Shown: one piece after another, positions 27,607 to 48,618 of the stretch | Position numbering within the stretch: position 1 is the first letter of the stretch | How the letters are laid out: the number at the start of each line of letters is the position of its first letter | Assembly (NCBI GenBank): GCA_017466345.1 | Contig: JAFTUI010000023.1 | Span: 94,990 to 158,989 of the forward strand | DNA: 64,000 nt | DNA from: Tidjanibacter sp. | Lineage (GTDB): Bacteria > Bacteroidota > Bacteroidia > Bacteroidales > Rikenellaceae | Direction of reading: 5' to 3' | Notes under the pieces: model-generated | What the model was told of the DNA's origin: nothing | The model's input: only the letters and a program-made list of their open reading frames with translations | Databases searched by the model: none | Made by a program: the position numbers and the translations under genes

Positions 27607-27675
27607 TCGCTTATAATTGGAGGTTAGTTCTGCAAATATAGTAAATTGAGTTGGGTTTTGCCAGTTTCGATGATG

Positions 27676-28738: not shown

Positions 28739-28761
28739 AGGCTCATCTATTTAATTTTCGG

Positions 28762-28796
28762 CAAAGGTAGGACACTTATGCGAACCCTTTGTTCGC
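28762..28796 (-). promoter_or_regulatory. Class A operator/promoter of WYL regulator 1
   Basis: In transcription direction: GCGAACAAAGGGTTCGC (28796-28780, perfect palindrome), 10 nt, TACCTTTG (28769-28762), with the WYL ATG 24 nt further on. The site covers the -33 position, which suggests autoregulation. Confidence 0.87.
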
Positions 28797-28852
28797 GAAA
28801 GGCGTTTACAAATTTATGGATTTATCTTTTGAAACGCAAATAACCCAAATTA

Positions 28853-29242: not shown

Positions 29243-29266
29243 ACCCCTAAACTTTGTTTCACGGCA

Positions 29267-29300
29267 CAAAAATACCACCTCTTGCGTACGCTATGTTCGC
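29267..29300 (-). promoter_or_regulatory. Class A operator/promoter of the WG-repeat-like gene
   Basis: In transcription direction: GCGAACATAGCGTACGC (29300-29284), a 9-nt gap, TATTTTTG (29274-29267). It is the right-most copy of the site. Confidence 0.78.
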
Positions 29301-29356
29301 GAGGTGGTTGGATTTGTGAAAAGTTCTTGAGAAATATTAAAGCAATATTCGCGCGG

Positions 29357-30130
29357 TTATGGCTCAAGCGTAAGGGTGATTACTCCATCTACGGCCTCTT
29401 TTTGAAAGTCTTGTACGCATCTTAACCACGAAATATAGTGCTCTTTATTGATGGCTGCAAGTTGTGTGTCGGACATGTCGGTTTCGTTCATAAAGGTTGC
29501 GTATTGTACAAGCATAGATTCTACTTTATCTTTACTTCTGTCTCCATCCTCACTCATCACTCCATCAACACCAGACCTGGCAAAACAAAAGCCATCCCTA
29601 ACACGATATCCATATTTTGCACTATCCCCATAGGCTTCTAGGCGTCTATTTATCTGCTCGTTCATCTCGATTGGCATACCTATTTTATTTCGAGTTAGAT
29701 ACCTGCAAACAATCTCGTTTGAGCCTATGGATTTGTCCTTCCAGATCCTCTCATTATAGCGTTCGAAAAAGTGTCGAGAATAGATACTCACTTGTCGAAT
29801 GAGTTGGAATGGGCTTTCTTCGGTATGCCTATACCCAGTAGGGTATGCTTGTATTATGTATCGACCTTTAGAATCATACACAACGGCATAGAAGTCCACA
29901 TATGGCCTTTCTATCCTGGATCGACTTTCGGCATAAAAGAAGATGATATATTTATTGTTAGACTCTGGAATTGTATATTCGTACCATCTCCACGCAGGGA
30001 ACTTCCGCTCTTTCTTAAACTCTCTGATAGCCTTTGAGCGTAAGAAGTCTTGTTTGATCTTTATCTTATTATGATAGTCCTTGGTGATATCGTCGTATAT
30101 CTCCTTGTTTGTCATTGTTGGGATTAGCAT
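29357..30130 (-). CDS. Hypothetical protein under promoter module B copy 2
   Basis: 257 aa, soluble, basic N-terminus, Tyr/Arg-rich middle (YIIQAYPTGYRHTEESPFQL, HFFERYNERIW). No recognised domain and no signal. The start at 30130 gives a leader of about 120 nt after the promoter box at 30262-30269; ATG at 30115 is also possible. It shares its promoter module with the unrelated gene at 12067-12477. Confidence 0.6.
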   Translation of the reverse strand: MLIPTMTNKEIYDDITKDYHNKIKIKQDFLRSKAIREFKKERKFPAWRWYEYTIPESNNKYIIFFYAESRSRIERPYVDFYAVVYDSKGRYIIQAYPTGYRHTEESPFQLIRQVSIYSRHFFERYNERIWKDKSIGSNEIVCRYLTRNKIGMPIEMNEQINRRLEAYGDSAKYGYRVRDGFCFARSGVDGVMSEDGDRSKDKVESMLVQYATFMNETDMSDTQLAAINKEHYISWLRCVQDFQKEAVDGVITLTLEP

Positions 30131-30230: not shown

Positions 30231-30296
30231 GTCCCGACAACACTTTCATATGCTGTCGGGACAAAGTTACGGGGCTGTTTTGACAATTACTGTCAA
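30231..30296 (-). promoter_or_regulatory. Promoter module B, copy 2
   Basis: TTGACA-N5-TGTCAA palindrome at 30280-30296, a 10-nt spacer, TAACTTTG (30262-30269), then hairpin GTCCCGACA/TGTCGGGAC (30231-30261). The palindrome overlaps the stop codon of the nuclease gene upstream. 62/66 identical to 12511-12576. Confidence 0.75.
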
Positions 30297-31147
30297 TCTG
30301 AAAAATTCCTTATATTTGTTTGGTTTGCGAGTACAAATTCGAAGTCGGGCATATCTTTCGTTGCATTTAACTTCTTCTTCTGAAATTCAAATACAGCATT
30401 GAATAGTTCTTGCATATCAACTTTGACAATCTCTTCTATGGTTTGGTCATAGACCACAGTCAAGGCATCTATCCCTAATTCACTGGGATTATAAATTAGG
30501 TAAATGAAGCGTATTTTGTTTTTGGCATCATCATTTGTTAAATAGTTGGCAGAGATTGCCAAGAAGTGACATATCAACTGTTTGAAATCCAAATGCTCAA
30601 TTGGGCTGCATTTATACTTAAATTCGCACTTAAATCGGTTTTTATCTCCCTTGATGTCGCCTTCGTTGGTGTAAATATCGCCAACTGATTTGGCAATGGC
30701 ATCATAAACTGGCATATATGCTCTTTTTACCGATTTGTTTTTGCTACCATAGATTTCTCGACATTTTGCCTCAATAAAAATCTCGCAATTCTCTCTGGCT
30801 ATATAGGCGTCAAGATAGGCTGTACCACCCACTTTAGTCTCCAAAGGGCATTCAAATTTAACATCGGCGACATCTCGTAAAAGCAAATAGATAAAACGAC
30901 TTGAAGATCCATAGCAAGCCATTTTTGGAGGATACCTACCCTCTTTAATCTCTCCGCCACCACCATTATGATAGTTGTCGTGATGTCTTTTATATTGCTT
31001 AGCCATATTTCTCAAGAAAGCACGCCAACTATCATTGTTCATATAGCGATCATAGCATTTTCCATTTTTAACCTCATAGCCATATTTATGACCATCCTTA
31101 TCTATGTTGCGAAGAGCATAGTCTAAATCATATTGAAGGTTTCCCAT
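30293..31147 (-). CDS. PD-(D/E)XK-type nuclease, putative
   Basis: 284 aa. The core motif reads YLDAYIARENCEIFIEAKCRE: Asp113, then Glu126-x-Lys128, preceded by Glu103 in CPLETKV, as in PD-(D/E)XK nucleases. It resembles the PGN_0703-type putative restriction endonucleases of Bacteroidales. It starts 4 nt after the WYL regulator 2 stop and is the last gene of the nine-gene operon starting at hsdM. It may supply DNA cleavage to the Zorya-like module or be an added effector. Confidence 0.68.
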   Translation of the reverse strand: MGNLQYDLDYALRNIDKDGHKYGYEVKNGKCYDRYMNNDSWRAFLRNMAKQYKRHHDNYHNGGGGEIKEGRYPPKMACYGSSSRFIYLLLRDVADVKFECPLETKVGGTAYLDAYIARENCEIFIEAKCREIYGSKNKSVKRAYMPVYDAIAKSVGDIYTNEGDIKGDKNRFKCEFKYKCSPIEHLDFKQLICHFLAISANYLTNDDAKNKIRFIYLIYNPSELGIDALTVVYDQTIEEIVKVDMQELFNAVFEFQKKKLNATKDMPDFEFVLANQTNIRNFSD

Positions 31148-31151
31148 ATAA

Positions 31152-32054
31152 CTACTTTTGATGAAACATATTAGTTACTTTCTGCCATATATACTCCTCA
31201 AATTCGGGGGTTAGAATTCGGATGTCCTCTGCCAAGCCCATAACGAAACGACCGATGCCCGCATAGTCGCAAACCATCGTGTCCAAGAGCCAATGGCTCT
31301 CGTCAATCTGCGTCAAATCTCGGCTGGCAAGGGGGTATTCCTCCACCAAGAGGTTGTGGGCCATAACGCCCAATTCGAGTTGCACACGCTTCTGCTCAAA
31401 GCCCGTAATGCGGAAGATGTCAATGTAGCCCTCGTGGTGCAATTCGCCAAACTGCCACCCCTCCGACAGCACGACCACCGAGCCGATGCGGGCGGTATTG
31501 AAGAGCTTATTCTTGCCCGACTCAGGCTCGTAGCACCACACCTGAACATAGTTCGTAGTAAAGCCAAAAGGCTCCACCAAGCGGTCGCGTACAATGCCCG
31601 TATGCGAGGATGCGTAACGCTTCAAAACGACCTGCTTGCGCTCGCCAATAGCCTCCACCAAGTGATTGACATTGACAGCATTCTTGCCCTCCACAACGCA
31701 GTCGGCCAGCGAGGTGCAGTTGTAGACAGCGGTGAGCTTCTTGCGCAGGTTTTGCTTGATGATGTTGGTGTTGTCGAGTGCCTCGATGAGTTGATTGACG
31801 ATGTGTGCCTCCTCATCCGTAAAGTGGATGAGCTGCGAAATCTCCTTGAAGTAGCGACTCTCCTTGCCAAGGCGGTAGATGCCGCCCTCCTTGCGCTGCA
31901 CCACAAAGCCCGACTCCTTGAAGGTATAGATGTAACGATACACCGAACGATAGGAGATGCCCAATCGCTCTGCCATATCCTCGACGGTGTAGTTGTTGTT
32001 GCCCGTCATCATCTTCATCAGACGCAGCACGCGCTCAATTTTCGGCTGTTCCAT
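31152..32054 (-). CDS. WYL-domain transcriptional regulator 2
   Basis: 300 aa. An N-terminal HTH (YTVEDMAERLGISYRSVYRYIYTFKESG) and a WYL domain (RKQVVLKRYASSHTGIVRDRLVEPFGF, VQVWCYEPESGKNKLFNTARI). It is embedded between the SNF2 gene (10 nt upstream) and the nuclease gene (4 nt downstream), so it is expressed as part of the operon it probably controls. It is visibly more GC-rich than the SNF2 and GHKL genes, suggesting a separate origin. Candidate binding sites are the palindromes near the hsdM promoter or module B. Confidence 0.87.
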   Translation of the reverse strand: MEQPKIERVLRLMKMMTGNNNYTVEDMAERLGISYRSVYRYIYTFKESGFVVQRKEGGIYRLGKESRYFKEISQLIHFTDEEAHIVNQLIEALDNTNIIKQNLRKKLTAVYNCTSLADCVVEGKNAVNVNHLVEAIGERKQVVLKRYASSHTGIVRDRLVEPFGFTTNYVQVWCYEPESGKNKLFNTARIGSVVVLSEGWQFGELHHEGYIDIFRITGFEQKRVQLELGVMAHNLLVEEYPLASRDLTQIDESHWLLDTMVCDYAGIGRFVMGLAEDIRILTPEFEEYIWQKVTNMFHQK

Positions 32055-32064
32055 ATCATCTGGT

Positions 32065-34920
32065 CTATTTGATACTCCACTTAAATTTGAACAATAGTTC
32101 TACCTCAGTTTTGTTCTCCATGGATTTTCTCAATTTCTCTGTAAGTTGATCCACTTCCTTTGCACAATCATCTTGTCTGTCAAACAATTCTTGTTGCTTT
32201 CTCCTTAAGTCCTTAAATAGTTTAGTCTCTTGCTCCTTAAGTGCAAGTTTGATTTTAGCGACACGTTCTTTGCGAATTTGTCGTTTAATATTCTCATGTT
32301 CCTTTCGCAAGGCGATAACTTCTTCTTCTAGTCTATAAATTCTATCCTCTGACCATGATTCAAATTTATCAATCTCTAGAATTATGTACTCATTTGTGCG
32401 TTCAGACAAGTCCTCTTTTAACTTTTCAAGTCGCTCCTGCATAATGTTCTGCATAGCCTCGTCTTCTTCTAATATGATGGGACTATAATGCATAGGAGAA
32501 ACCTGCAACAATGCCTTTGCAAAATCATCATGGAGTATTGTTCCGTCTTCTGTTATAGTGCAGCATATCAAGTCTTCCTGACTATCGTGCTCGTTGTAGG
32601 TGTATACTTTATACACATACGAAATACCCGAACATCCCCTTTGTTCTTCAAGAAGACTCTTTCTGATTGGATGACCATCTAGGTCAAAAACAATACTTAA
32701 TGAATTTGTATCGGATTGCCTTGCCTCAGCAATTATATATTCTCCAAGAGGATGAGTCAATCTCAACTGGTGATCACAACCATTGTCCTTACCCAACCTA
32801 TAACGACCTGTGGATATCGAATCCGAGGGACTACTTATCAGTGTAAACGACATTGTGTCGTCATCAATATCTGAAATCCTACTTTGCAGAACTGATTTAG
32901 CGAGTAGCCATAAACTCCTATTATACACATTTACTCTATTGCAATCATCAACCTGGCGCATGCGTAACTTTTGTACGACTTCATCATCAAAATTCTCTAA
33001 TAATGAGCGATGTGTCTGTTTTAACCTTTCACGGATAACATCTTCAAGTTCTTTCTGTAACTCATCAAAGGCAGCTTCAATCTCTTCTGCCGTTCTACAA
33101 GTTTGGTATATTCTATTTAACTTCTTCTCAAAGCCGATACCAGAATCTATTGCGCCAATGACTTCATCGCTACACCCAAATACGCCATCAAACAGATTGA
33201 ACTTACTAGAGAGTAACTGATACACTCTATTGTCGGCAATATTCTTTTGATTAACAAAGTTTACAACTACGACATCGTGCCTTTGACCATAACGATGGCA
33301 ACGACCAATACGCTGCTCTATTCGTTGTGGATTCCAAGGCATATCAAAGTTGACAACCAGAGAACAGAACTGAAGGTTGATACCTTCTGCGCCAGCCTCG
33401 GTAGCAATCATAATCTCTGCATCTGTACTAAAATAGTCTACGAGTGCTTGCTTCCTATCAATGTCCTTATTGCCAGAAATTCGATTTGTTCCATGATAGC
33501 GAGTAAGCCAATTTTCATATATGCACTTCGAAGTAAAGTCGTTATTCATTCCATTGAAACACACAACCTTATCTCGGTAACCGTGTTCTTCGAGGTAGAA
33601 TTTGAGATATTCTTGTGTCTTCCTACTTTCTGTGAAAATGAGGGCTTTGCGATTCCCACCAAGTTTCTCTATTTCATCGAATGCCACACCAAGAGCCTCT
33701 ATTAGCTGAACTGCTTTAGTCTCATGCTTTATTTGTTGAGCAAGTTTTCTGCATTCTACTAGTTCTTTAATCTCACCGTCAATCGAATAATCTACATAGG
33801 GTTCGTATTCGTCTGAATACTCGTTGTCCTCATACAATTCTTCGTCTTCATCAAACTCAATATCATCAACCACGTCCTCAATGTTGTTGATGGGCATACC
33901 ATCCTTTTTATACTCCTCAAGTTTTGCTATAAGCTTTCCAAGAGTGAAGGAGATTGCATAAGCCGAGGATGAGAGGATTTTTCGTATGATAAGGGACAGC
34001 ATGGGCAATGCTATTGGATTGATAGCATGAATTACCCTGCGCTTTAAGTATTTATCTACACGGTCATATAGTTCTTGCTCTTGAGGGGTCGGCTCATATT
34101 TAATAACCATTGCAGAACGCTTCGTATAGTTAACATACTCTTGGACTTGACACCTAAGAGTTCTGTGAATAATGCGTTGTAGCCTTCCTTTAAGTTCGCC
34201 AAAACGAGAGTTATCCCTGGTTGTGATAGCATTGTATTGCTTATCGAAAGTGTCGACAGAAGAGAAAAATTCCCCATCAATTATGCTGATCAGACCATAT
34301 AGTTCCTTTAGGTTATTTTGAAGAGGGGTGGCAGTTAGTAATACCTTCTTGAATGGATACAAAGTGCGCTTAATATCAGACGCCATTTTAGCACCATGCA
34401 TATACACATTTCTGAGTTTATGCGCCTCATCAAGCACCACCAAGTCCCAACTGACGCGTTTTATATCTTCCGCATATTTGACGGCAAAATTATATGAGCA
34501 GACGATGATCTCCTCTCCTTTATCCAATGGACTTATATCCGCACTCTTATAAGCTTCGTAATTGCTGGTTAGCAATATTTTAGAGGGAAGATAAAATTTC
34601 TCTAACAACTCAATATTCCATTGGTTTCTGAGGGATGCAGGAACAATAACAAGAATCTTCCTTTTATGTTGCGCCCACATTTCTGACAGAATAATACAAG
34701 CCTCAATGGTTTTGCCAAGACCCACCTCATCTCCTAGTATTGCACCCTTTGACAGAGGAGACTTGAATGCAAAAAGAGCCGCCTCAACCTGATGCGGGTT
34801 GAGGTCAACCTTTGCCTCCGACAATATGCCCGTAAAGCGAGAATCATCACTTACGGATTTCTTGTGAGTTAAATCCCACGCAAAATATAGTTGCTGTAGG
34901 GGAGAAATGTGTTGTGCCAT
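32065..34920 (-). CDS. SNF2-family helicase/translocase
   Basis: 951 aa. Motif I is GDEVGLGKTIEA (about residues 62-73), motif II VLDEAHKLRN, and the C-terminal helicase lobe has IATEAGAEGINLQ and RIEQRIGRCHRYGQ. An acidic insert (DDIEFDEDEELYEDNEY) splits the core, and about 100 residues of charged coiled coil close the protein. The family translocates on double-stranded DNA. In Zorya type I the SNF2 protein ZorD carries a nuclease domain, which I do not see here. The gene lies 4 nt downstream of the GHKL-DUF3883 gene. Confidence 0.87.
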   Translation of the reverse strand: MAQHISPLQQLYFAWDLTHKKSVSDDSRFTGILSEAKVDLNPHQVEAALFAFKSPLSKGAILGDEVGLGKTIEACIILSEMWAQHKRKILVIVPASLRNQWNIELLEKFYLPSKILLTSNYEAYKSADISPLDKGEEIIVCSYNFAVKYAEDIKRVSWDLVVLDEAHKLRNVYMHGAKMASDIKRTLYPFKKVLLTATPLQNNLKELYGLISIIDGEFFSSVDTFDKQYNAITTRDNSRFGELKGRLQRIIHRTLRCQVQEYVNYTKRSAMVIKYEPTPQEQELYDRVDKYLKRRVIHAINPIALPMLSLIIRKILSSSAYAISFTLGKLIAKLEEYKKDGMPINNIEDVVDDIEFDEDEELYEDNEYSDEYEPYVDYSIDGEIKELVECRKLAQQIKHETKAVQLIEALGVAFDEIEKLGGNRKALIFTESRKTQEYLKFYLEEHGYRDKVVCFNGMNNDFTSKCIYENWLTRYHGTNRISGNKDIDRKQALVDYFSTDAEIMIATEAGAEGINLQFCSLVVNFDMPWNPQRIEQRIGRCHRYGQRHDVVVVNFVNQKNIADNRVYQLLSSKFNLFDGVFGCSDEVIGAIDSGIGFEKKLNRIYQTCRTAEEIEAAFDELQKELEDVIRERLKQTHRSLLENFDDEVVQKLRMRQVDDCNRVNVYNRSLWLLAKSVLQSRISDIDDDTMSFTLISSPSDSISTGRYRLGKDNGCDHQLRLTHPLGEYIIAEARQSDTNSLSIVFDLDGHPIRKSLLEEQRGCSGISYVYKVYTYNEHDSQEDLICCTITEDGTILHDDFAKALLQVSPMHYSPIILEEDEAMQNIMQERLEKLKEDLSERTNEYIILEIDKFESWSEDRIYRLEEEVIALRKEHENIKRQIRKERVAKIKLALKEQETKLFKDLRRKQQELFDRQDDCAKEVDQLTEKLRKSMENKTEVELLFKFKWSIK

Positions 34921-34924
34921 ATTA

Positions 34925-37900
34925 CTACTTCTTTTCTATCCTGATTGCATACTCTGGAGAGTCGCTTCTAAACTCTTCAATTCCTGCTCTTTGCCAATAG
35001 TTTTTGGCAATTCTTTGACAGCGTTTTTTGAGATTCTCATTCTCGCGAGGATTCTGGTCTTTACCAAAAACATCACGCGCATCTGAATAGCTATTTGCCA
35101 AATTCAGGTCTTTAAGCGATACCCTAACAATTCGGTAATCTGCACGTGGGTTTTCATGCATAAACCCATTCTGCATTCTATGTAGATAGAAAGGTGAATT
35201 GCCTTCTTTTAAACTATATAGATTGGTCTTGACATCGACATATACAATATGCCCATCAGCCTCCGTATATTTGAAGTCATATTGCCCAACACCTTTATCT
35301 GCAGAGAACTCATATTCAACTTTCAATTTCTCTTTCAAATATTGCTCATAGATCAATTCACCAATATAGCCGATGATTTGTCTTACCTGCGATTGTTCAT
35401 CCTTTTCGTCAGACATCATCTCCTTGATCTTATCAATGTTCTGTTTTAGATATGAAAGATCATCGCCTGAGAATTCCTCGCATAGAGTTACTACATTTTC
35501 GATATTTTCAGTCAGAATTCGTTTCTGTTCTGCTGTCAATGTAGAAAGAGTTTTATCTTCCTTACTTGCAGGAGCGGGAGTGTATTCACTGATGAAGTCT
35601 GCAACCTCCAATCCTTTCTCTTCGGCAATTTTCTCTAATTGCTCAAATTGATTCAAAAACATACCTTGCAAAGCCATAAAGGGCTTTTGAAACCAATATA
35701 GCAATTTGTAATCTTCTGACTCGGCAAGACTTTGCTCTAGTGTTTTTATAACAGTTGTTTTCTGCTGTGTAGGATATTGTAAGATTATAAACTTAGAGTC
35801 TTTACTATATCCTATTTGAGCATTATTCTGATTCTCTGAGAATATTTCGTTGCCATTGCGGTTGATAGTAAAATGAATTACCACATCTTGTTTCGACAGC
35901 ATAATGCGAATTCTATACAACGAAAACCACTCCTTGTATAATTGATTATCCCACTCAATGGCATTTTTATCTTCTCGGGCTACTGTGTCAATTCTCCACC
36001 TTGAGTCATTGTCTAATTTATATTTGCTTACTAATTCTCCGTCACACTTGTAAACTATATGTGACGCAATTAATTTTTGAAGAGCTGCACTAACCAACAA
36101 CCTTCTTGCGAAATTGTTTTTGTCCTCATCAAATAATATATTGTAGTCGGACTCAACCATCTCGAGCTTAAATACCGACAAGGCATTATTGTCCTTTTGA
36201 ACAGCTTTTACATACTTAAGAAGATATTTGTCTCCCACAAAGCCTTTCTTTAGAGCCTTGATTAACGAGTTGGTAATCAAATATTCATTAGAATCCTCAA
36301 TGATCTCTCTATTTTGGTTGGAAATCCATCGGAGACAACTCAAAATGTGTTGATTTTCTAATGTATATACTCCATCATATGGAACTCCATCGAGAAAAGC
36401 TTGTCTAATTTTAATATGTGGCTCATCTGCGGTAATAGCACCTTCAAATAGGATATATCCGTCATGGTTTTGTGTAAACCAGAGGTCTAGATCATTAGGC
36501 AGACACTCATCTGGATTAAGGAGGCTCTTGTCTGCAAAAATATGCTTATTAATATCAAAGTCGTTGATTTTGAAGTATCTGTTAAAACCAACCATATTTC
36601 TCTCCTTAATAGCATCAAGCATATTAGAGAGTCTAATAGACGAACTTAACAGAAGCTCTCCATCTTCACATTCATTGGAAAACAAGTAGTCCAAGCAGAA
36701 GAGCATTTGTGGAATAGTCAAAGACTCTCCGCACAACTGATCGTATAAATCATCGGTATCTATTTGTGTTTCTCTACCCTCATAATAGTAATTCTTGAAC
36801 TCTACGGGCGCTGGTATTAATGCAAGGAACGATTCAATAGTGTCGTTCTCGATTTTAACATCCTCGTCAAGGTCATAGACGGAGTAGACTTGCCCATTGC
36901 AAACCACCTCGCTGCTGATTATCGAGTCGGGTAATCTTTGGCCGCCACTATAAATTGCCTTGAAGATACTGTTTCTAAATTGAGAATGTCGCTTGCCATA
37001 GTCTATAATTGCCCACTCCTCGCTATCCAATGTAATAGGAGAACTTATGTCAATATCGCCAAGATTGGCAAAATAGTACCCTTTAACATCCTCATTACAC
37101 TTATCGATAACAGGAAGTAAGAATAATTTGGAAGCCCGAGAAAAACTATTGATTACATATCTTGCCAGACCACTATTGCTAGTTAATTTATATTCATCCC
37201 TTTTATCTTCTGGGATAAAATAAACCAGGTCTTTGTCAATCCTAAAGAAATTGTGGCTTTCAAGAATAGCATCTATTCGAGTAGCTTCTTCTGTTATTCC
37301 TATGTAGTTGCGCTCGTTAGATTGCAAGGGCTCAATAGTCCACATTGTGCCACTTTTAGCGACATGGAAACCTCGTCCCTCATTACTTAGCAAGTCCCCA
37401 TTTTTCATTTTGAAAAATGCGGTCAAAGTCATATTATCAATCGGTACATCTTTTTCGTGCAAATCGAAAACTCTCAGACTATCCAACTTAAATGGGGGTG
37501 TATTTAAAGCGGATACATATTTGCGACTAACAATACCAGCAGAGGGGAATACTTCGCGCAAATGCTCATACTCCTCATCTGTAAGAAAGGCTCCATTTGT
37601 TAGTTTTTGTTTCTTTTCGTCTGTTGGGATGCCAGCGTCATCTAGATACAATTCCAGACTATCGCTTCTTCCACTGTCGGACACATATGCAGAATATACC
37701 GTTGAAATGTCTTTTAGACACTTATGTGGATTCTCTGCCCAGTCTGGCAAGGCTTTAATAAGATTTATCTTGTGTTTTGTCCAAAACCACTGCTTTTCTG
37801 GAGACACTCGGCACCAACTCTCTTCAATATTTGACGGTCTGTAACCTTGAAGCACAAAGTGATCATACAATGTGGTGTCTGTCGGACGCTCGAGAAATAA

Positions 37901-39856: not shown

Positions 39857-40571
39857 CTTTCTTGCTCTTTAGGTTGGTTTTGATGTATGGTACAACTTGT
39901 ATTACAAAAGTTCTATTTTTTCCTGAAACACGTCCTTCTCCTTCTAATCCAGAGCCTGCAACAATCACATTGTCACCCTTAAGAATATCATTATCCTTCC
40001 AAAGGATGCGAAGATTGTTGGCACGGTTGTAACTGAGGTTTCGCTGACTATTGGGGATCTTCTCTTTTTCGCCTTCGCCTATGCGTCCATCAATAATGAT
40101 TTTAAATCCGATATAGTCATTGCCTTTAAAGTTTGAAACAACACTTTGTATTGCACGTCCAATCTCAATTAGGTCCTCCTTGTCTTTTTCTGGAATAATA
40201 GCCCTATTCTCCTCAAACTCTACATGTTTTTTAACTCGGAACATATTGTGTTCAGAGTCGTATTCTATGTATTTATTATTGATCTGCTCTTGTGCCTTGC
40301 GAAGTTCATTCATTGCTTTGTACAACTCTAAAGAGATTTGAATATCACCTTCGGTAATATCCAGACCAGAGCCACCCTCGTCATTAAGCGTGGACTCTAT
40401 AAAGTTAACAATACCTTCGTGTTCTTCACGCCATTTAATAGCATCTCGATAAATTACAATGGCAATTACACTGGCAATCATAAATACGATTAGAAAGCCA
40501 GACATAAGATCTGTATAACTCTGGTATGAGTTATGTTCGTCTTCGTTGTCTTTAAATTGCAGCCTACCCAT
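39843..40571 (-). CDS. ZorB-like MotB/OmpA-family protein
   Basis: 242 aa. A single N-terminal membrane helix begins with a Tyr-Thr-Asp motif (SYTDLMSGFLIVFMIASVIA). Asp21 occupies the place of the ion-binding Asp of MotB-type stator proteins. A coiled coil follows (ELRKAQEQINNKYIEYDSEH), then an OmpA-like peptidoglycan-binding domain (FKIIIDGRIGEGEKEKIPNS, RNLSYNRANNLRILW). In Zorya, ZorB anchors the ion-driven complex to the cell wall. The start codon overlaps the ZorA-like stop (TAATG), so synthesis is coupled. Confidence 0.83.
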   Translation of the reverse strand: MGRLQFKDNEDEHNSYQSYTDLMSGFLIVFMIASVIAIVIYRDAIKWREEHEGIVNFIESTLNDEGGSGLDITEGDIQISLELYKAMNELRKAQEQINNKYIEYDSEHNMFRVKKHVEFEENRAIIPEKDKEDLIEIGRAIQSVVSNFKGNDYIGFKIIIDGRIGEGEKEKIPNSQRNLSYNRANNLRILWKDNDILKGDNVIVAGSGLEGEGRVSGKNRTFVIQVVPYIKTNLKSKKDEDS

Positions 40572-41995
40572 TATGCTCTAAGTTTGTTAAGTGTGGCTTC
40601 AAGATTCTGCAACGAGACAATAGCCTCGCTCACCTCTCTAATGCGTTGGGTTAGATTATCAATATTTGTTTGTCGAGTTTCCAACAAAGACAGAATGTTT
40701 TTGATGTTCTTATTGGTGTTCTCCATTGCAGACAAACTCTCATTCATGCGGGTAATCGCACTCTCGACAACTTCATTATTGTCATGAGCGTTCTGAACAG
40801 CATCCCTGTATGCCAATGTGGCTTGCTCATAGTCGGACTTAATTTGAGCTATGTGTTCGTCGATGAACTCATAACTATCACCCAACTGGTCGACAATGTT
40901 TGATATGGCATCTGCAAGACCTTTGCACTCAGCACTGACAGATTCTGATATCTGGCTAACAACATCAGAAAGTGAGTCGTTGAGTTGTTTGGCAACCTGC
41001 TCATTTTGCTCGGTAGCCTTGTTAAGCATTTCTTCACAACTTGCAGCATACTGTTCTCCAAGTTCCTGCATGTTTTTTTGCAATTGCTCGTTGCTTCTTG
41101 CGGACTCCTCAAATAGCTTGTTTGAGAGTACCTCTTGGTTTTGAACGAGAAGCGAAAGTTTCTCATTCTGTTGGTCAGTGAGAGCTTGAATAGCCGAACT
41201 ACTAGTGGCAGACACATTGTCTATCATAGATGTTAGAGATGTGGATATCTCGTCCAACTGTTTTTGGGTTGTATCAATGGAGGCTTTGATGTTTTCTTTC
41301 TGCTGTTCAATGAGTCCTGATGACACCTCTGACATTTTTTGAGTCATCTCTTCAAGAACCTTACGACTTTGCTCAAATTGCGAATTGCCAAAAGTCTGTA
41401 CCTGCTGTTCAATGGATGTCTCCATCTTTTTGAAAATAACATCCATTCGGTCAACAAAGTCATCAACAAACCTCTTCAATATATCGCTTTGCGACAAGAT
41501 GTTTGTTGTAAGTTCCTCATTATAGATTCTTGATAGTTCTTGCTGACTCTTCAGTAAGGTAACAATTGACTTGATGTTTTTCTCTGGCGAATCCAACTGC
41601 TCAAATTCAGCAACTTCTTCTGCTTGATAACGTAACTTATTAATAATCGTAGTTATAACCGCACCGACAATGCCATAAATTGATGTGGAAAATGCAGGCA
41701 CAAGATTGCCGATCAACCTTGTAATAAGAGACATATCTTTCACTGTCTCATCTTCCACTGCAGCAAATGCATTAAGTGAGATACAAATTGCGCAGAATGT
41801 ACCAAAGATACCTAGCGATGTCCAAATCGTAGGTATTGAATTGAGCAACTGTCGGGAGTGAAATTTGGTTGCCTTAAACTGCTTGTTATCTCTACGATAA
41901 AACCACCAAGTAATACATCCTCCAATTAACAAAACAAAAGCGTTCCAGGACTGCCAAGGCTGTAATGCTACAATTAACGAATCTATTTCCTTCAT
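40571..41995 (-). CDS. ZorA-like MotA/TolQ/ExbB-family protein with coiled-coil tail
   Basis: 474 aa. Three membrane helices (about residues 14-31, 45-68 and 90-112 from the start used here), with the family pattern SIPTIWTSLGIFGTFCAICISL in the second and AFSTSIYGIVGAVITTIINKL in the third. A long helical tail of about 340 residues, rich in Gln, Glu and Ser heptads, follows. This matches ZorA, whose stator channel carries a long cytoplasmic tail. The tail here is shorter than in the Zorya proteins I know. ATG at 41995 lies 4 nt after the hsdR stop; an earlier ATG at 42028 would overlap hsdR by 29 nt. Confidence 0.83.
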   Translation of the reverse strand: MKEIDSLIVALQPWQSWNAFVLLIGGCITWWFYRRDNKQFKATKFHSRQLLNSIPTIWTSLGIFGTFCAICISLNAFAAVEDETVKDMSLITRLIGNLVPAFSTSIYGIVGAVITTIINKLRYQAEEVAEFEQLDSPEKNIKSIVTLLKSQQELSRIYNEELTTNILSQSDILKRFVDDFVDRMDVIFKKMETSIEQQVQTFGNSQFEQSRKVLEEMTQKMSEVSSGLIEQQKENIKASIDTTQKQLDEISTSLTSMIDNVSATSSSAIQALTDQQNEKLSLLVQNQEVLSNKLFEESARSNEQLQKNMQELGEQYAASCEEMLNKATEQNEQVAKQLNDSLSDVVSQISESVSAECKGLADAISNIVDQLGDSYEFIDEHIAQIKSDYEQATLAYRDAVQNAHDNNEVVESAITRMNESLSAMENTNKNIKNILSLLETRQTNIDNLTQRIREVSEAIVSLQNLEATLNKLRA

Positions 41996-41999
41996 CACA

Positions 42000-44900
42000 T
42001 TAATTATTTTTACTTTTATAATTTTCAACTTGTCCCATTACCTGTTCAAATACTTCGTCATTATATTGTGGTGGGTAACCGTTTTTGACCAGGCAGAAGA
42101 ATATTTTTTGATTTAGATCGGCTCTAACATTTGAGTTGTTTAACCAGTCGGTAAATGACGACTGAATATCAATGAGTTCTTTTATCTTTTGCGCCAACGA
42201 CTTACATTTATCATTGATAATCAGATTGCCAACCTTCTTATCCTCTCCGTACTCAAAGTTATACTTGTCGCGTAGGTGCATAAGAATATCATAAAACGCC
42301 TTCTCCTCGAATGTCAAACCGAGTTTACGGAAACTCTCTTTATCCTCTCCCAATCCTGCGAGAATGTCGAGTGCTTGTTGAGTTGCATTTTTGATAATCT
42401 CATCAATTGCTTCATTTTGTACTTGCGTGCCCTCTTCGTTAGATAATGAAGCACGACGATTGTGGTACTCTTCTAGAGTTTTCTTCAACAATTCTTCAAA
42501 CTTCTCAGCTGCTATTTTGTTTGTGTTCTTGTACTCTTTAATGGATCTACGAAGTAATTTTACTAGAATTTCAAGTTTTGTTGCTGGGAGTTTGATACAT
42601 TCAAGTTGTGCTGTAAACTCTGGGCTAAATATGTTTTCTTCAACATCCGTTTCGAGTATATCAACTACCGAGTTGCATTTGAGGGCCTCTGCAACCATTT
42701 TTTCTACAACTCTGTTCATGCTCTCTGTGTCATGCTTATCGCCAGAGGTCTTGCGTATATATGATGCCACAGCCATAAAACACTGCGATAGGGAGAGTGT
42801 TTCATTGTCGAGGACATTGGCTGGTTGGCAAATATCGTAAGCTGCCCTTAATCGTTTTACATGAGCAAGAAAGAAGGTCTTTGCGCTGACCAATTTCGGA
42901 GTTTTTCCCTCCTGGGTGGCAGCATTCAATTGGTCTGTTAAAGTTATAATGTAATCAGCTGCTGCAGATAGGCATTCCAAACGCTCTAATGGTTTTGCGT
43001 TTGGGTCAGTGAATGGGGATATGTCAAAGCCGACAAAGAGTTTCTTCAATATATCCAATTCAATCAGCAGAGCCTGCAGGGCTTGCAATACATCGTCTTC
43101 ACTAGGACCGAAATCACCGCCTCCATTACCTTTGCCACCGCCGTATCTACCCATCGCTTCCATCATATTACTATGGATGCCGATATAATCGATAATGTAA
43201 CCATACTCTTTATTGGGGTATTTACGATTTACACGACTTATTGTTTGTATTAAGGACTGTTTTTGTAATGGTTTATCGTTATAGAGATAAGTTAGACAAG
43301 GCACATCAAAGCCCGTAATCCACATATCAACAACTATCACGATACGGAAATTGGAGTGTTCCATTTTGAAGGCTTCATCCAACTTTGTTGTACGAGATTT
43401 CTCCCCGAGATACTCATACATATCTTTGGGATCATTTTTTCCTCGTGTAGCCACCATTGCGATAGTGGGCATCAACTTGAGTTCTTTTAACTCCTCAGCG
43501 GTAAGCTTGCTGTCATCGGGCGATTTTTTCTCTTCAAACCACTCTGGTTTCAGTTTTTTAAACTTACATAGTAGTTTATATCCAATGTGGCGTTTGCTAC
43601 AAACGATCATGGCCTTTTGGACCACATCCACCTTATTCTCACAAGCCTTGGTATAGTGGTCAATAATATCTTTTGCAAGTCGTTCAAGTCGTTCTTCATC
43701 GCCCAAGATGACTTCCATTGCACTCATCGCCTGCTTGCTGGCTGCCACATCGTCCTCTGTGGCACCTTCTTCTGCACACTTTTTGTAGAACTCATCAATT
43801 TGTTGCACTTTTTCGCTGTCGAGTGTGACTTTGGCAATACGTGGGATGTATTTCAGAGGCACTGTGATTTCGTCATCGACAGCCTGCTGCATTGTGTAAC
43901 TATCCACAATCTGCCCGAACACCTGGATAGTCTCATCAATGGGGGTGCCTGTAAAGCCTACGAATGTAGCATTGGGGAACGCGCAACGAAGATGCTCTGC
44001 ATAAGGCTTGGTAATAAATGCGCCTAATTGTTCATCTTCGAGTGTCTCCTCTGCGCTTTTGCGATCTTTGATTTTGAGTTGTTTATTAAGTCGTATCTGC
44101 GTACGGTGTGCTTCATCCGAGAAACAGATGATGTTTCTACGAGTGTTAAGTTCGCCTATCTCCTCGCAGAACTTTTGGATTGTGCAGATGAAGAATCCAC
44201 CCGACTCACGCAGCGATAGTTCTGTTTTTAGTTCGTTTCTGTTGGCAATAACTTTGGCCGCACCGATCGAAAGGAACTCCTCCGAGCGTAAGAATAGCTT
44301 GCCTGCTTGTGTTTGCAGGTCATCGCGGTCAACTATCATCACAATTGTTGGTGAGCCCAACTCCTCACAGCGCAGTGCCAACTGTCGAGCCAGGAACATC
44401 ATTGTGTAGGTCTTGCCACAGCCAGTTGCGCCAAAGTATGTGCCTCCTTTGCTACTTTTCTCTTTGTATGCTGCAACAACACTCTCTCGGAGCATTCGGG
44501 ATGCAAAGAACTGCGGATATCGACACACAATCTCCTCCTCTTTGGCAAAGTTTTTGTCAGGGAAATAGACATAGTCGCGCAGTATTTCCAGGAATCGAGA
44601 TGGCTCATATGCACCTTTAACAATCGTCTTTACTTGATCGATGCCTTTTTGTGCTGCTGGGTCCTCATTGTTAACCTTTTTCCATGCATAGTAGTGCTCG
44701 TATGGAGTATATGTAGTTCCCAACTTTGTGTTATTTATCGTTGCATCACTAATGCACGAGAGGGGGCAATATCGCAACAGATGAGGGATGTCTCGTAAAT
44801 AACGAGTGTGAATTTGCTCGTATGCATCGGCAATTGTTGCGTTGAAATCGGTCGGGTTTTTCAGCTCGAAGATACAGAGTGGAATGCCGTTGACAAACAA

Positions 44901-45314
44901 CAGTACATCTGGTATGCGAATGTCGTTTTTAAGACCATAGCCCACTTCAAACTGATTTACACAGCGAAAGGTGTTGTTGCTATACTCCTCGAAGTCGATG
45001 TACTCGATGTCGAAAACCTTGCCATCGGCATGGCGAGTATAGCGGTAACCATCCCTAACTAGTTGGAAAGTATTACGCAACACATCAAAGTGGGCCTGAC
45101 CGCTTGTGTGCTTCAAGTGGTTTACAACCTCTTCGACATCTTCTTTTGTTAGCTCGGAGTATTGCTTCTGCAGATAACTTTGCAGGTCATCAAAGAGCAA
45201 TACCTCGCGATTGTTGCGAGGTATCTTGCCACCATAGGTATATGTCCACCCTTCATTTTCGAGGAGGTCTATGAGGGCTTCTTCGTAATCGCTTTCGTAA
45301 TACTTACCTATCAT
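42000..45314 (-). CDS. hsdR: Type I restriction enzyme, R subunit
   Basis: 1104 aa. The N-terminal PD-(D/E)XK nuclease is RIPDVLLFVNGIPLCIFELK. The SF2 translocase has Walker A GATGCGKTYTMMFLA, DEAH box FSDEAHRTQ, FVGFTGTPIDET and ISRVNRKYPNKEYG. A helical C-terminal region for HsdM/HsdS assembly follows. It cuts DNA after ATP-driven translocation when the target is unmethylated. It begins 14 nt after hsdS and is followed 4 nt later by the ZorA-like gene. Confidence 0.94.
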   Translation of the reverse strand: MIGKYYESDYEEALIDLLENEGWTYTYGGKIPRNNREVLLFDDLQSYLQKQYSELTKEDVEEVVNHLKHTSGQAHFDVLRNTFQLVRDGYRYTRHADGKVFDIEYIDFEEYSNNTFRCVNQFEVGYGLKNDIRIPDVLLFVNGIPLCIFELKNPTDFNATIADAYEQIHTRYLRDIPHLLRYCPLSCISDATINNTKLGTTYTPYEHYYAWKKVNNEDPAAQKGIDQVKTIVKGAYEPSRFLEILRDYVYFPDKNFAKEEEIVCRYPQFFASRMLRESVVAAYKEKSSKGGTYFGATGCGKTYTMMFLARQLALRCEELGSPTIVMIVDRDDLQTQAGKLFLRSEEFLSIGAAKVIANRNELKTELSLRESGGFFICTIQKFCEEIGELNTRRNIICFSDEAHRTQIRLNKQLKIKDRKSAEETLEDEQLGAFITKPYAEHLRCAFPNATFVGFTGTPIDETIQVFGQIVDSYTMQQAVDDEITVPLKYIPRIAKVTLDSEKVQQIDEFYKKCAEEGATEDDVAASKQAMSAMEVILGDEERLERLAKDIIDHYTKACENKVDVVQKAMIVCSKRHIGYKLLCKFKKLKPEWFEEKKSPDDSKLTAEELKELKLMPTIAMVATRGKNDPKDMYEYLGEKSRTTKLDEAFKMEHSNFRIVIVVDMWITGFDVPCLTYLYNDKPLQKQSLIQTISRVNRKYPNKEYGYIIDYIGIHSNMMEAMGRYGGGKGNGGGDFGPSEDDVLQALQALLIELDILKKLFVGFDISPFTDPNAKPLERLECLSAAADYIITLTDQLNAATQEGKTPKLVSAKTFFLAHVKRLRAAYDICQPANVLDNETLSLSQCFMAVASYIRKTSGDKHDTESMNRVVEKMVAEALKCNSVVDILETDVEENIFSPEFTAQLECIKLPATKLEILVKLLRRSIKEYKNTNKIAAEKFEELLKKTLEEYHNRRASLSNEEGTQVQNEAIDEIIKNATQQALDILAGLGEDKESFRKLGLTFEEKAFYDILMHLRDKYNFEYGEDKKVGNLIINDKCKSLAQKIKELIDIQSSFTDWLNNSNVRADLNQKIFFCLVKNGYPPQYNDEVFEQVMGQVENYKSKNN

Positions 45315-45328
45315 AGTAATGCGGTTAA

Positions 45329-46447
45329 TTATGAGTTAGCAGCTCTTTGCACCAGTGCTGGGCAAAGTGTTTTAAGTTTTTCTCTTGCCTCCGAAGCAAT
45401 CTTCTTTGACTCTTCAAGGCAGGTATATACTTTTACGATTGAACGCTGTACCTCTATCGGAGGTATTGGTATTTTGTATTCACATAAATTTTCTTCTTGT
45501 AAAAACTCATATGCACTACCCACAGACTTCCAATACACATATCGACCAAATTCTCTTCTCTTTACCCATAAGAAAAGATATTTTGGTAAAAGTTCTTCTG
45601 ATTTTGAAGGCTTAATTTCAAAAGCATTATATACGGGAGAGACAACACAGTCTTCTCCTTCTCTATAAGCTATTGCGACATTTTCATTATTTAACTGTGT
45701 ACAATACGCAAATTGCCCTTTTCTGACAATTATTCTTGAGGATAGATCGGAGTTAGAGCGTTGTGGTGTGATGAATTGTTTGTCAATATTAATACCTTGT
45801 TCAAGTTCTATTTTGCAATCCGAATTTTTCTCTTTATATATGTCAATATACTCTCCAAGTTCAACTTCGGGGTACTTGGTTTTGCAATCGACAATAAAAG
45901 CTTCGCAAGCTTTGCTGAGTGGCTCAATCAATGCCTCATTCTGCTCCGCAAGAGCCTTCAATCCATTGTAAGTATCCACCAACTCCTGCTGCACCTCAAT
46001 CGAAGGCAGAGGAATTTCTGTGCGACAGAACTCACTCCAGTCAAAAGTCTCTCTTGCGCTGCCCCAAGAGTTGAAACGAGAATAGCGATCAAACTCACTA
46101 CGACTCAATAGAAGAAATAAATATTCTGGCAACAACTTTGACACATCCTTGCATCTGAAATTTTCATAAGATGATGACACGATGTATGTGTTTTCAGTGT
46201 CATTAATAGCCAAAGAAATCTTTCCTCCATTTCTTGAAGTTACCGTGACATAACTAAACTCTCTCGGTTTAAGCAATTTATATGGAGTCAGTGATACACC
46301 CTGCATATCAGCTTTTGTGAATATAAGTTTCTTTTGGATACTTATACCACGCACATCGTCAAGAGTGTATTTCCCCTCGCTATTTCGTTCATCGCAAGGC
46401 TCTATATACTCCCCAAGCTGCACCCACTTTACACTACTCGCACTCAT
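45329..46447 (-). CDS. hsdS: Type I restriction enzyme, S (specificity) subunit
   Basis: 372 aa. Two target-recognition domains are visible as an internal repeat: WVQLGEYIEPCDERNSEG... LLPEYLFLLLSRSEFDRY, and VELGEYIDIYKEKNSDC... LLPKYLFLWVKRREFGRY. Each is followed by a conserved helix (PLPSIEVQQELVDTYNGL and PIPPIEVQRSIVKVYTCL). The recognised sequence cannot be read from this. Start at 46447 overlaps the hsdM end by 14 nt. No second hsdS or recombinase nearby, so no sign of shuffling. Confidence 0.92.
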   Translation of the reverse strand: MSASSVKWVQLGEYIEPCDERNSEGKYTLDDVRGISIQKKLIFTKADMQGVSLTPYKLLKPREFSYVTVTSRNGGKISLAINDTENTYIVSSSYENFRCKDVSKLLPEYLFLLLSRSEFDRYSRFNSWGSARETFDWSEFCRTEIPLPSIEVQQELVDTYNGLKALAEQNEALIEPLSKACEAFIVDCKTKYPEVELGEYIDIYKEKNSDCKIELEQGINIDKQFITPQRSNSDLSSRIIVRKGQFAYCTQLNNENVAIAYREGEDCVVSPVYNAFEIKPSKSEELLPKYLFLWVKRREFGRYVYWKSVGSAYEFLQEENLCEYKIPIPPIEVQRSIVKVYTCLEESKKIASEAREKLKTLCPALVQRAANS

Positions 46448-48032
46448 AACCCAATTGTTTAAGCGCATTGCGCAAGGTTTCGTCATTCTTTTTTTGGCGT
46501 TTCAATAGGTCTGAAACGGTTGATGCGGTTTCGGTAAGCACAGCATTGTAGTCGATATCTGAATCTCTGTCAACAAACTCGATATAGCGGCTTGGAACAA
46601 GTGAGTAGCCATTCTCTTTGAGTTCTTCAAGGCTAACCGAGCGATAGAGTTCTGGCTCTGCATAGTTTGCTCCATCTGTGCCTTCGGCCTGCCACTTGAA
46701 ATAGATATCCCTCGCACGCTCTACCTGATCGGCTTTAAGCTCCACCTTCTTTTTCTGCTCGCCCTTAACGGCATTATCAGTCCACTGGCGCAAGTCCATA
46801 AATAGTATCTCACCAGATCGGTCGCGCTGCTTGCGATCATGCCACAAGCCACCCTTCTTATTCTGATTGAGAATCCACAAAGTAACCGAAATATCTGTGG
46901 TGTAGAACAGCTCACGGGGTAAAACAATGATTGCCTCCACTTTGTCGTTCTCAATGAGTTTCTTGCGAATCTCCACAGCATCACTATCGCCCAGTGCACC
47001 ATTCGCAAGCAAGAAGCCTGCAATGCCTTTACCAACTTTTAGTTTGGAAAGCATATGCAGAATCCAGGCGTAGTTGGCATTGCCCTCGGGTGGCAACGCA
47101 TAGTCTGCCCAACGAGCATCGGTGCTCAACTTGTCGTCGTACCACTTCTTCAAATTGAAAGGAGGGTTTGCCATAATATAGTCAAAGACTAAACCCTTGT
47201 GCATATCGTTGGTAAAGGTAGATGCGTTCTTCGCTCCCAAGTGATGCGAGATGCCACGAACAGCCAAGTTCATCTTCGCAAGTCGATAGGTGGCAGGATC
47301 GCTCTCTTGACCATAGACATTTACAGCCTTGATGTCGCCTTGTTTAAGTTCTACATATTTAGCGCACTGAACAAACATACCACCAGAGCCACAACATGGA
47401 TCGTAGAGAGTGCCATCAAATGGCTCAATAAAAGCAGCAATCAACTCAACTATATCGTGTGGGGTGTAGAACTCGCCATCCTCTTTGGTTGCATTTACGG
47501 CAAATGACTTTAAGAAGTACTCATACACACGACCTATCAAATCCTTTTCCTCTCCAAAAACCTTATGTGAAATCTTGTTGATTTCATCTACAACTTTCTT
47601 CGCAACATTAGCTTCTAGATTTATAGAAGAGAACAATCCCAAGCGCACGCAGCCTTTCAACGCCTCGCCACTATCGTCAATAGCTTGCAATGCATCATCC
47701 AATGCACCATTTAGTTTCACTGCGGGAAGGTTGATGAGATTGCTCCAACGAGCAGCCTCTGGAACATATGCAACATTCTGATAGCGGGCAGGACTATTGA
47801 GGAATGCCTCGATAACTGCCTCATCATTGATGCCATGCTTGATACAATCTTCGCGCATTGCAATTTGTGCATCCTCGAACTTCTCGCCAATAAAGCGCAG
47901 GAATACGAGCGTGAGGAGCAAATCTCGTTTGTCGTTGAGAGTCGCATTACTGCGCAAATAATCTCGACAGTTAAACAATATGGATTCTAGATTGAGGTTT
48001 TTCTCTTCTTTCTTTGTTGCTTTTTTTGCCAT
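46434..48032 (-). CDS. hsdM: Type I restriction enzyme, M subunit (adenine methylase)
   Basis: 532 aa. An N-terminal HsdM helical domain (FNCRDYLRSNATLNDKRDLL) and an N6-adenine methyltransferase core with SAM motif LYDPCCGSGGMFVQ and catalytic ANPPFNLKKW (NPPF). It modifies adenine in the site selected by HsdS, protecting host DNA. First gene of the nine-gene operon; its promoter box is TAACTTTG at 48098-48105. Confidence 0.95.
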   Translation of the reverse strand: MAKKATKKEEKNLNLESILFNCRDYLRSNATLNDKRDLLLTLVFLRFIGEKFEDAQIAMREDCIKHGINDEAVIEAFLNSPARYQNVAYVPEAARWSNLINLPAVKLNGALDDALQAIDDSGEALKGCVRLGLFSSINLEANVAKKVVDEINKISHKVFGEEKDLIGRVYEYFLKSFAVNATKEDGEFYTPHDIVELIAAFIEPFDGTLYDPCCGSGGMFVQCAKYVELKQGDIKAVNVYGQESDPATYRLAKMNLAVRGISHHLGAKNASTFTNDMHKGLVFDYIMANPPFNLKKWYDDKLSTDARWADYALPPEGNANYAWILHMLSKLKVGKGIAGFLLANGALGDSDAVEIRKKLIENDKVEAIIVLPRELFYTTDISVTLWILNQNKKGGLWHDRKQRDRSGEILFMDLRQWTDNAVKGEQKKKVELKADQVERARDIYFKWQAEGTDGANYAEPELYRSVSLEELKENGYSLVPSRYIEFVDRDSDIDYNAVLTETASTVSDLLKRQKKNDETLRNALKQLGYECE

Positions 48033-48147: not shown

Positions 48148-48618
48148 TCATTGGACTATAATAAATTCCTCCACTCTCCGACTTTTTGACAGACGGATGT
48201 CATAGAGAACATTGAGCGAACTGCCTTTGTGGAGTCCCGCAAATACACACTCATCGGCATAGTCGGCAACAACGAAATTGCGCAGTTGGGAGGTGCGATA
48301 GTTATTCCTCGATACATCGCGGACATTCATAATCAACATTCGTCCTTCCGACAGAGGGTCGGCATACTGCGTAGGGACTCTCTTGTAGAGAGTGCGCCCG
48401 AGCACAATCACAACGGGATGTTTATGTTCCAGGAGAATGTTTAAGACTTCTTTTTCTAGTGGCGAGTGAAAACCACTAATGACCACCTTGTCGGTTGTAG
48501 AAACCTGCTCGGCCCACTTTAAGGCACACTTTGCTACTTCCTCGGGTGTCTGGCGAGAGGCGAAAAAAGCGACCAGGGGCTGGTCGAGTAGTTCAAGGTT
48601 ACCCAGGTGTTCGTCCAT
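48148..48618 (-). CDS. Small SLOG/DprA-like protein
   Basis: 156 aa, only the Rossmann core of the SMF/DprA (SLOG) fold: KVVISGFHSPLEKEVLNILL, PVVIVLGRTLYKRVP and LSEGRMLIMN. No DNA-binding winged helix. Similar short proteins are common in Bacteroidales and are often annotated as DNA-processing proteins, but natural competence is not implied. It lies upstream of, and on the same strand as, the hsd operon, which has its own promoter. Its long structured leader suggests control after transcription starts. Confidence 0.7.
   Translation of the reverse strand: MDEHLGNLELLDQPLVAFFASRQTPEEVAKCALKWAEQVSTTDKVVISGFHSPLEKEVLNILLEHKHPVVIVLGRTLYKRVPTQYADPLSEGRMLIMNVRDVSRNNYRTSQLRNFVVADYADECVFAGLHKGSSLNVLYDIRLSKSRRVEEFIIVQ

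Follow-up and report, generated by a model that had tools for sequence, protein, structure and literature searches.

This report concerns a stretch of 64,000 nucleotides (nt) from Tidjanibacter sp. (assembly GCA_017466345.1, 30 contigs, 1.82 Mb; contig JAFTUI010000023.1), hereafter termed the window, in whose coordinates all positions are given, and a set of four genes contained in it. These genes, zorA, zorB, tmtA and snf2, constitute a conserved unit (32065-42028, minus strand) that recurs in other genomes, and we think it likely, by analogy with published Zorya systems, that they encode an anti-phage system of the Zorya type that employs new effectors and in which a membrane-embedded stator would gate a nuclease of the GHKL class. 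Gene content and order, recurrence, motifs and the predicted fold of the nuclease were obtained directly. The unit is composed of the following features:

40571..42028, minus strand: zorA, ZorA-like stator subunit, 485 residues from a TTG start or 474 residues from the ATG at codon 12
39843..40571, minus strand: zorB, ZorB-like subunit of 242 residues, with a transmembrane (TM) helix at residues 22-40 adjoining Asp21 and an OmpA-like region
34925..39856, minus strand: tmtA, GHKL ATPase of 1643 residues with a C-terminal NOV_C (DUF3883) domain, a predicted PD-(D/E)XK nuclease
39464..39676, minus strand: TmtA residues 61-131 with the ATP-binding boxes of the GHKL class, conserved without exception across the 12 aligned sequences
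35057..35407, minus strand: TmtA residues 1484-1600, the predicted core of its PD-(D/E)XK nuclease, with E1500, D1527, D/E1541 and K1543
32065..34920, minus strand: snf2, predicted SNF2/RapA-like translocase of 951 residues, DrmD type

The unit was identified through its recurrence. When 295 genomes of the order to which the window belongs were searched with TmtA, 7 gave a match and, besides the genome of origin, one of them contained a full-length homologue (G322, 39% identity), in whose neighbourhood zorA, zorB, tmtA and snf2 follow each other in the order and on the strand arrangement found in the window, with no hsd match in the surrounding 40 kb. A scan with a two-row TmtA alignment over a collection of genome contigs (84,980 species according to the text of the tool) returned 15 loci, 14 titled Bacteroidales, Bacteroidia or similar, among them a contig of G322 (L061), and one from a Saprospiraceae metagenome-assembled genome (MAG; L072). 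In all 15, zorA and zorB directly precede tmtA, arranged as in the window and spaced at -4 to +12 nt. The tmtA gene is complete in ten of the loci and is followed by snf2 in nine of these, at a distance of -26 to +6 nt in eight and behind an inserted 529-residue Schlafen/AlbA-type open reading frame (ORF) in L059, while L072 contains a complete zorA-zorB-tmtA triad with no snf2 downstream. Five loci that end inside tmtA (L064, L065, L069, L071, L073) were left out of the alignments A7-A10. Since the scan patterns were derived from two ZorAB-linked TmtAs, its result covers this lineage and not TmtA at large, and as L059, L063, L067 and L068 are mutually close, and likewise L060 and L066, the 15 loci are not all independent.

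Class-wide, TmtA matches were found in 20 of 247 genomes. One of these, L029, belongs to another order of the class, in which the triad is present in one of three genomes; its zorA-zorB-tmtA genes lack snf2 and are followed by a gene for a PKD/CHU_C protein. Its zorA and zorB were missed by blastp and detected in a profile search, and we have consequently rejected a reading of the blastp data according to which the TmtA homologues of the class would all lack ZorAB. Because L029 and L072 both carry the triad without snf2, the smallest shared unit observed is zorA-zorB-tmtA, which is accompanied by snf2 in the Bacteroidales group. A preliminary description of the window, made from the letters and their translations, had proposed a Zorya-related stator with GHKL-DUF3883 and SNF2 partners and had named the recurrence of this set with and without hsd genes as a check. 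The set does recur, with hsdMSR part of the operon in none of the 15 loci of the scan, two of which cover less than 1 kb upstream of zorA, but its SNF2 component is constant only in part, being found in nine of the ten complete loci and absent from the triads of L029 and L072. At greater distance, TmtA profile searches of the phylum, which covered 395 and 355 genomes, gave 5 and 10 matching genomes, respectively, without a full-length match beyond the genome of origin; tblastn with TmtA found no match in 72,556 plasmid records, and scans of viral contigs with TmtA and ZorA found no confirmed relative. The ZorB profile, in turn, matches 24 of the 295 genomes of the order. At 12 loci examined besides G322 and the window, some of which end early at contig ends, the partners are different, L108 being a Zorya type II system with ZorE.

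The assignment of the stator pair relies on profiles of ZorA (A6) and ZorB (A5), each built from 16 sequences, which were compared with all chains in the PDB. The top matches of the ZorA profile are 8qyk (E 2.5e-15), 8vvn_C (E 1.2e-8) and 8vvi_F (E 1.4e-6), those of the ZorB profile 8vvn_B (E 5.3e-18, profile positions 9-228), 8vvi_A and 8qyd_F, where 8VVN and 8VVI are ZorAB complexes of type I and type II, respectively (PMC11890865). The ZorA profile also matches many coiled-coil chains, such as apolipoproteins. Among PADLOC models, the window proteins are closest to ZorA2 (E 7.4e-15) and ZorB1 (E 1e-12), and all 16 ZorA sequences match ZorA models as do all 16 ZorB sequences the ZorB1 model; the NCBIfam cut-offs are reached by neither window protein. 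ZorA of the window displays TM segments at residues 73-91 and 111-129 and, by alignment with its relatives, a third near 31-47. Using a hydropathy cut-off, 13 of the 16 sequences show three segments, L069 has four, and the sequences of the window and of L068 have two each. The last segment is followed by a long helical cytoplasmic tail of about 350 residues. ZorB contains a single TM segment in all 16 sequences, and Asp21 (codon 40509-40511) at the ion-carrying position is invariant; its counterpart D24 is required for defence in Zorya types I and II (PMC11890865). In the OmpA-like region, for which the Pfam match is weak in the window (E 0.12) and 2.7e-11 in L029, Ser180, Arg183, Ala184 and Arg214 are each found in 15 of 16 sequences and Leu179 in nine, while residue 163, which corresponds in the alignment to the His that binds peptidoglycan in known ZorB proteins, is Arg in 15 and His solely in L072. 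Both proteins are Zorya-related, with a resemblance in sequence that is remote but specific.

These similarities make it highly improbable that the stator, in the manner of ExbBD, TolQR or GldLM, energizes an envelope or transport process unconnected with defence, a view that can appeal to the remoteness of the Zorya similarity and to a MotA_ExbB match in Pfam (E 0.0012) below its cut-off, but that is contradicted by the Zorya ZorA and ZorB chains at the top of both PDB comparisons, by the fact that among the best 60 of 96 ZorA matches the only chains named MotA, TolQ or ExbB are 8vvn and 8vvi, which are Zorya ZorAB (PMC11890865), by the GHKL-nuclease and SNF2 partners, and by the defence-type genes in the neighbourhood.

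The third member of the triad is a giant protein that belongs to an existing family. Its sequence matches the PADLOC TmtA model PDLC03970 along residues 1-1600 (E 2e-161), as do all 12 aligned TmtA sequences. TmtA is the protein of Tiamat, reportedly described as a single-gene system by Millman and colleagues in 2022. The GHKL boxes, consisting of E61, N65 and D68, of N87-N88-G89 and of G124, G127 and G129, are invariant in 12 of 12 sequences. An NCBIfam model of sacsin-like ATPases is matched with 38.7 bits (E 9.9e-10), short of the 50 bits that it sets as cut-off, and in Pfam the protein gives weak signals for GHKL and for NOV_C, the former DUF3883. The call of a GHKL-DUF3883 giant in the preliminary description is thus correct with respect to the domains, albeit with weak Pfam signals, and has to be complemented by its membership in the TmtA family. 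A nuclease in the giant protein had gone unnoticed there: a PD-(D/E)XK motif of the form E...D...(D/E)xK is retained at the C-terminus in 12 of 12 sequences and the predicted fold matches. In the model of this domain, the elements H52-72, E76-78, E89-92, E98-106, H121-129 and E134-141 correspond to the alpha-beta-beta-beta-alpha-beta core of PD-(D/E)XK enzymes, and a structure comparison ranks nucleases and resolvases with this fold among its leading matches, with a Foldseek E value that is weak (0.024). In the literature, DUF3883 has been termed 'a novel REase domain' (PMC3710099). Sequence and model together identify the DUF3883/NOV_C end of TmtA as a predicted PD-(D/E)XK nuclease domain. 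When examined by regular expression alone, the motif was found in none of five TmtA-like proteins without linked ZorAB, and no chain in the PDB is matched by the TmtA profile. A separate architecture is observed in L027 (G110, 8227-17332), where a TmtA-like protein of 2307 residues with an added AAA/SF1 helicase part is encoded beside QatC- and QatD-like genes.

The SNF2 protein is closest to DrmD in PADLOC (E 1.8e-188), whereas ZorD is matched with E 8.5e-31 and the DrmA helicase model is cross-matched far below DrmD (E 3.7e-34). Its NCBIfam DrmD_b score of 624 bits stays below the cut-off of 950. RapA is the top PDB match of the SNF2 profile, and the predicted C-terminal part of the protein follows the RapA structure, whose first post-helicase domain has been described as a degenerate REase-like fold (PMC12839542). 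We have considered whether the protein would harbour a hidden nuclease and rejected this option, as there is no catalytic motif among the invariant C-terminal residues and the C-terminal model is RapA-like. By sequence, the snf2 product is classified as an SNF2/RapA-like translocase of the DrmD type. The profile searches of all four core proteins against Zorya models that had been recommended in the preliminary description have a divided outcome, with ZorA and ZorB matching such models but TmtA matching TmtA and the SNF2 protein matching DrmD best.

The four proteins appear to share a common history. Their pairwise distances are correlated in ten loci (r 0.87-0.98, with none of 5000 permutations reaching as high a value for any pair) and in six less redundant loci (r 0.64-0.95, without permutation test). 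In a tree of 18 long TmtA sequences, the 12 ZorAB-linked proteins are located on one branch as opposed to six unlinked ones, with support of 100/100. Shorter or weaker homologues, among them L006, L022, L033, L160, L161 and L163, are not part of this tree, and L027 was included with its first 1650 residues. The long branches and the midpoint root of the tree limit what it can tell about direction. These data bear on the possibility that two systems reside side by side, one a Tiamat-type TmtA (with SNF2) and the other an orphan Zorya-like stator, which would share a transcript by chance. Consistent with such a coincidence, TmtA relatives found elsewhere in the class and in the phylum, including L027, L030, L051, L052, L159 and L162, show no ZorAB profile match in the stretches read, and in L033 (G241, 7425-14038) a TmtA-like GHKL protein of 1240 residues is encoded next to an SNF2 protein of 962 residues, again with no ZorAB match. 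A chance association is difficult to reconcile with the presence of the triad in all 15 loci of the scan and in L029, with the separate branch of the ZorAB-linked TmtAs and with the correlated divergence of the core proteins, and we regard it as unlikely.

A second alternative concerns the extent of the system. The preliminary description had joined nine genes in a single system tied to a type I restriction-modification (R-M) enzyme, so that R-M, stator, TmtA and SNF2 would act as one, with methylation by HsdM marking self DNA for the TmtA/SNF2 effector. The nine ORFs that it had placed at 30293-48032 in one direction are all present on the minus strand with these coordinates, and their tight packing, with hsdR abutting or overlapping zorA, speaks in favour of this proposal. 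Together, however, only the middle four genes recur across loci. In none of the 15 related loci is hsdMSR part of the operon, although in 13 of them the sequence preceding zorA extends over more than 7 kb (less than 1 kb in L062 and L065), and the link to type I R-M for this reason looks local to this genome. L064 alone contains a divergent gene for an N6-methyltransferase of 703 residues, and the other upstream neighbours vary, those scanned including an AbiE pair (L063), UvrD helicases (L060, L071), a T5orf172 gene (L061), a DprA-like gene (L070), a WG-repeat gene (L073) and a DEAD-type helicase (L059). Viewed from the side of R-M, 104 of the 198 genomes searched within the order contain hsdR relatives, and among the best 30 hsdR loci zorA is located nearby only in the window, with the other 29 lacking it in the flanking sequence, which spans about 1.5 kb at most. 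A 20-kb stretch read in a congener contains hsdM-hsdS-hsdR and no zor genes, and no TmtA or ZorB match was found in the genome of this congener. A composite of all nine genes is in light of these observations quite improbable, and hsdM, hsdS and hsdR, which are adjacent in the window and form a complete type I R-M set, are assigned to a separate neighbouring system. Downstream of snf2, neither the WYL gene nor the gene of the 284-residue protein has a blastp match in the 15 loci, of which seven are covered for at least 2 kb past snf2, and the 284-residue protein was found only in its own genome in a search of 198 genomes of the order. It is in our judgement likely that the hsdMSR, WYL and 284-residue genes are adjacent members of a defence island that the system does not require:

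46434..48032, minus strand: hsdM, neighbour (Pfam N6_Mtase, E 1.2e-87)
45329..46486, minus strand: hsdS, neighbour (PADLOC Specificity_I, E 1.5e-137)
42000..45314, minus strand: hsdR, neighbour outside the conserved unit (PADLOC REase_I, E 1.2e-248)
31152..32054, minus strand: HTH-WYL-like regulator of 300 residues, neighbour (PADLOC WYL, E 1.8e-15)
30293..31147, minus strand: protein of 284 residues, neighbour, matching no family in Pfam, PADLOC and NCBIfam

The spacing of 1-14 nt that had been given for the nine genes depends on the choice of start codons. It is obtained with later ATG starts of hsdS and zorA, where junctions range from -14 to +14 nt, but not with the longest ORFs, where they range from -53 to +14 nt. 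In the latter case, hsdM and hsdS overlap by 53 nt (14 nt if hsdS starts at the ATG at codon 14), and hsdR and zorA overlap by 29 nt with the TTG start of zorA, which turns into a gap of 4 nt with its ATG at codon 12. The remaining junctions are a gap of 14 nt between hsdS and hsdR, overlaps of 1 nt between zorA and zorB and of 14 nt between zorB and tmtA, and gaps of 4 nt (tmtA-snf2), 10 nt (snf2-wyl) and 4 nt (wyl to the 284-residue gene), and the entire run is flanked by gaps of 115 and 162 nt. With respect to domain assignments, hsdM, hsdS, hsdR and SNF2 are clear, but the PD-(D/E)XK label that had been attached to the 284-residue protein is based on a motif recognized by eye and has no family match. 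A short DprA-like gene is found just upstream of hsdM (48148-48618), and a longer one upstream of zorA in L070. On the other side, a minus-strand cluster at 24471-30130 encodes a 351-residue MIT_C (phospholipase D-like) protein, a 716-residue AAA_15 ATPase, a second WYL regulator and two proteins without clear family, and the same AT-rich stretch contains a reverse transcriptase gene (22382-23971, RVT_1, E 2e-23). Genes for phage terminase, portal and capsid proteins at 54903-60080 indicate a prophage beside the defence island. The region at 50-64 kb of the window had no match in two congeners, in a search carried out without positive control.

A scheme of how the conserved unit might act can be drawn from published Zorya work, which serves as the source for stator assembly, sensing, activation and DNA cutting. 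For Zorya types I and II, the peptidoglycan-binding domain of ZorB, the tail of ZorA and ion flow are all necessary, and ZorAB has been proposed to recruit complexes with nuclease activity (PMC11890865), with the same logic being given for type I in PMC12904381. By analogy, ZorA and ZorB would assemble into an ion-driven membrane stator anchored to peptidoglycan. Phage infection would disturb the envelope, and ion flow through the motor would alter the ZorA tail, which in this state may recruit or activate TmtA. As suggested by its GHKL class, TmtA might close around DNA as a clamp, and its PD-(D/E)XK domain would cut this DNA close to the membrane. Where snf2 is present, in the Bacteroidales group, its product could assist TmtA by translocating along DNA and delivering or opening the substrate, perhaps like the helicase part of ZorD in type I. 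Following Zorya types I and II, TmtA is probably the effector that is recruited by ZorAB.

Should the set represent a fourth type of Zorya, it would connect Zorya and Tiamat, which are catalogued apart, and point to a general role of Tiamat-like proteins as cytosolic effectors that different sensors could drive. The set also hints at what TmtA proteins may do, as this lineage has a predicted nuclease domain that is unnamed in the PADLOC TmtA entries seen. As signalling from motor to nuclease in Zorya is still known through models only, an unrelated, ATP-gated effector would help to separate what is common (stator and tail) from what can be swapped (the effector), and the variant lends itself to asking whether the signal carried by the ZorA tail is a general one. 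A possible source for such work is Prevotella sp. P5-50 (L063), a carrier whose record is not labelled as MAG. Other stator genes were encountered in different settings. In L101, L103 (G316), L104 (G424), L106 and L107, ZorB-like genes are found beside a gene of 541-581 residues, ZorA-like by PADLOC in L103, and a protein of 1053-1165 residues, which has no PADLOC match in L103, L104 and L107; this set is possibly another stator-based system. In L098 (G445, 2185-9921), ZorA- and ZorB-like genes accompany a type IIG restriction enzyme of 1212 residues and a protein of 459 residues of no PADLOC family.

The named Zorya types combine ZorAB with ZorC and ZorD (type I), with ZorE (type II) or with ZorF and ZorG (type III) (PMC11890865 and a further source), and the set described here fits none of the three as defined in these papers, as had been stated in the preliminary description. 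With type I it shares the stator pair, a ZorB that is nearest to ZorB1 models, an SNF2-type helicase among the cytosolic partners and a nuclease in the effector set. In type I, however, an Mrr-like nuclease domain is carried by ZorD (PMC11890865), whereas here the nuclease is part of the 1643-residue GHKL protein and the SNF2 protein, without nuclease motif, is far closer to DrmD than to ZorD; ZorC was not found among the PADLOC matches listed for the nine proteins, of which there are 25 each for hsdM, hsdS and SNF2. With type II it shares the stator pair, a ZorA nearest to ZorA2 models and, in the triads of L029 and L072, a single nuclease-bearing cytosolic partner. This partner is ZorE in type II, an HNH protein with nickase activity (PMC11890865), in contrast to the giant GHKL/PD-(D/E)XK protein TmtA. 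No ZorE was found among the PADLOC matches listed, where the control L108 matches ZorE with E 5.3e-48, and neither ZorF (DUF3348) nor ZorG (DUF2894) was found in Pfam at E 0.001 or among the PADLOC matches listed, in this case without positive control. With DISARM DrmD, BREX BrxH and RapA, the set shares the type of its SNF2 protein. It differs from DISARM in that no other DISARM gene was recognized in the operon, with DrmB and DrmC absent from the matches listed in Pfam, PADLOC and NCBIfam. The relationship to Tiamat is defined by the match to the PADLOC TmtA model. In contrast to the reported single-gene definition of Tiamat, TmtA of this lineage is by gene content joined to a Zorya stator in all 15 loci, and it is found on a branch apart from its six unlinked relatives. 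In the open-licence literature, the leading matches describe no fourth Zorya type and contain nothing on the subject of TmtA, no paper treats Zorya together with GHKL, and a combined search for Zorya, Tiamat and Bacteroid returned one review that lists the names; the available excerpts of PMC13192584 and PMC12904381 name no further Zorya type. Since ZorAB and TmtA are both known families and their combination matches no named type, the set is best described as a variant of Zorya, possibly a fourth type. We consider it about evenly balanced whether it constitutes such a type, with ZorA-ZorB-TmtA as minimal form, in which a peptidoglycan-anchored ion motor would mechanically gate a GHKL clamp nuclease and to which an SNF2 translocase would have been added in Bacteroidales.

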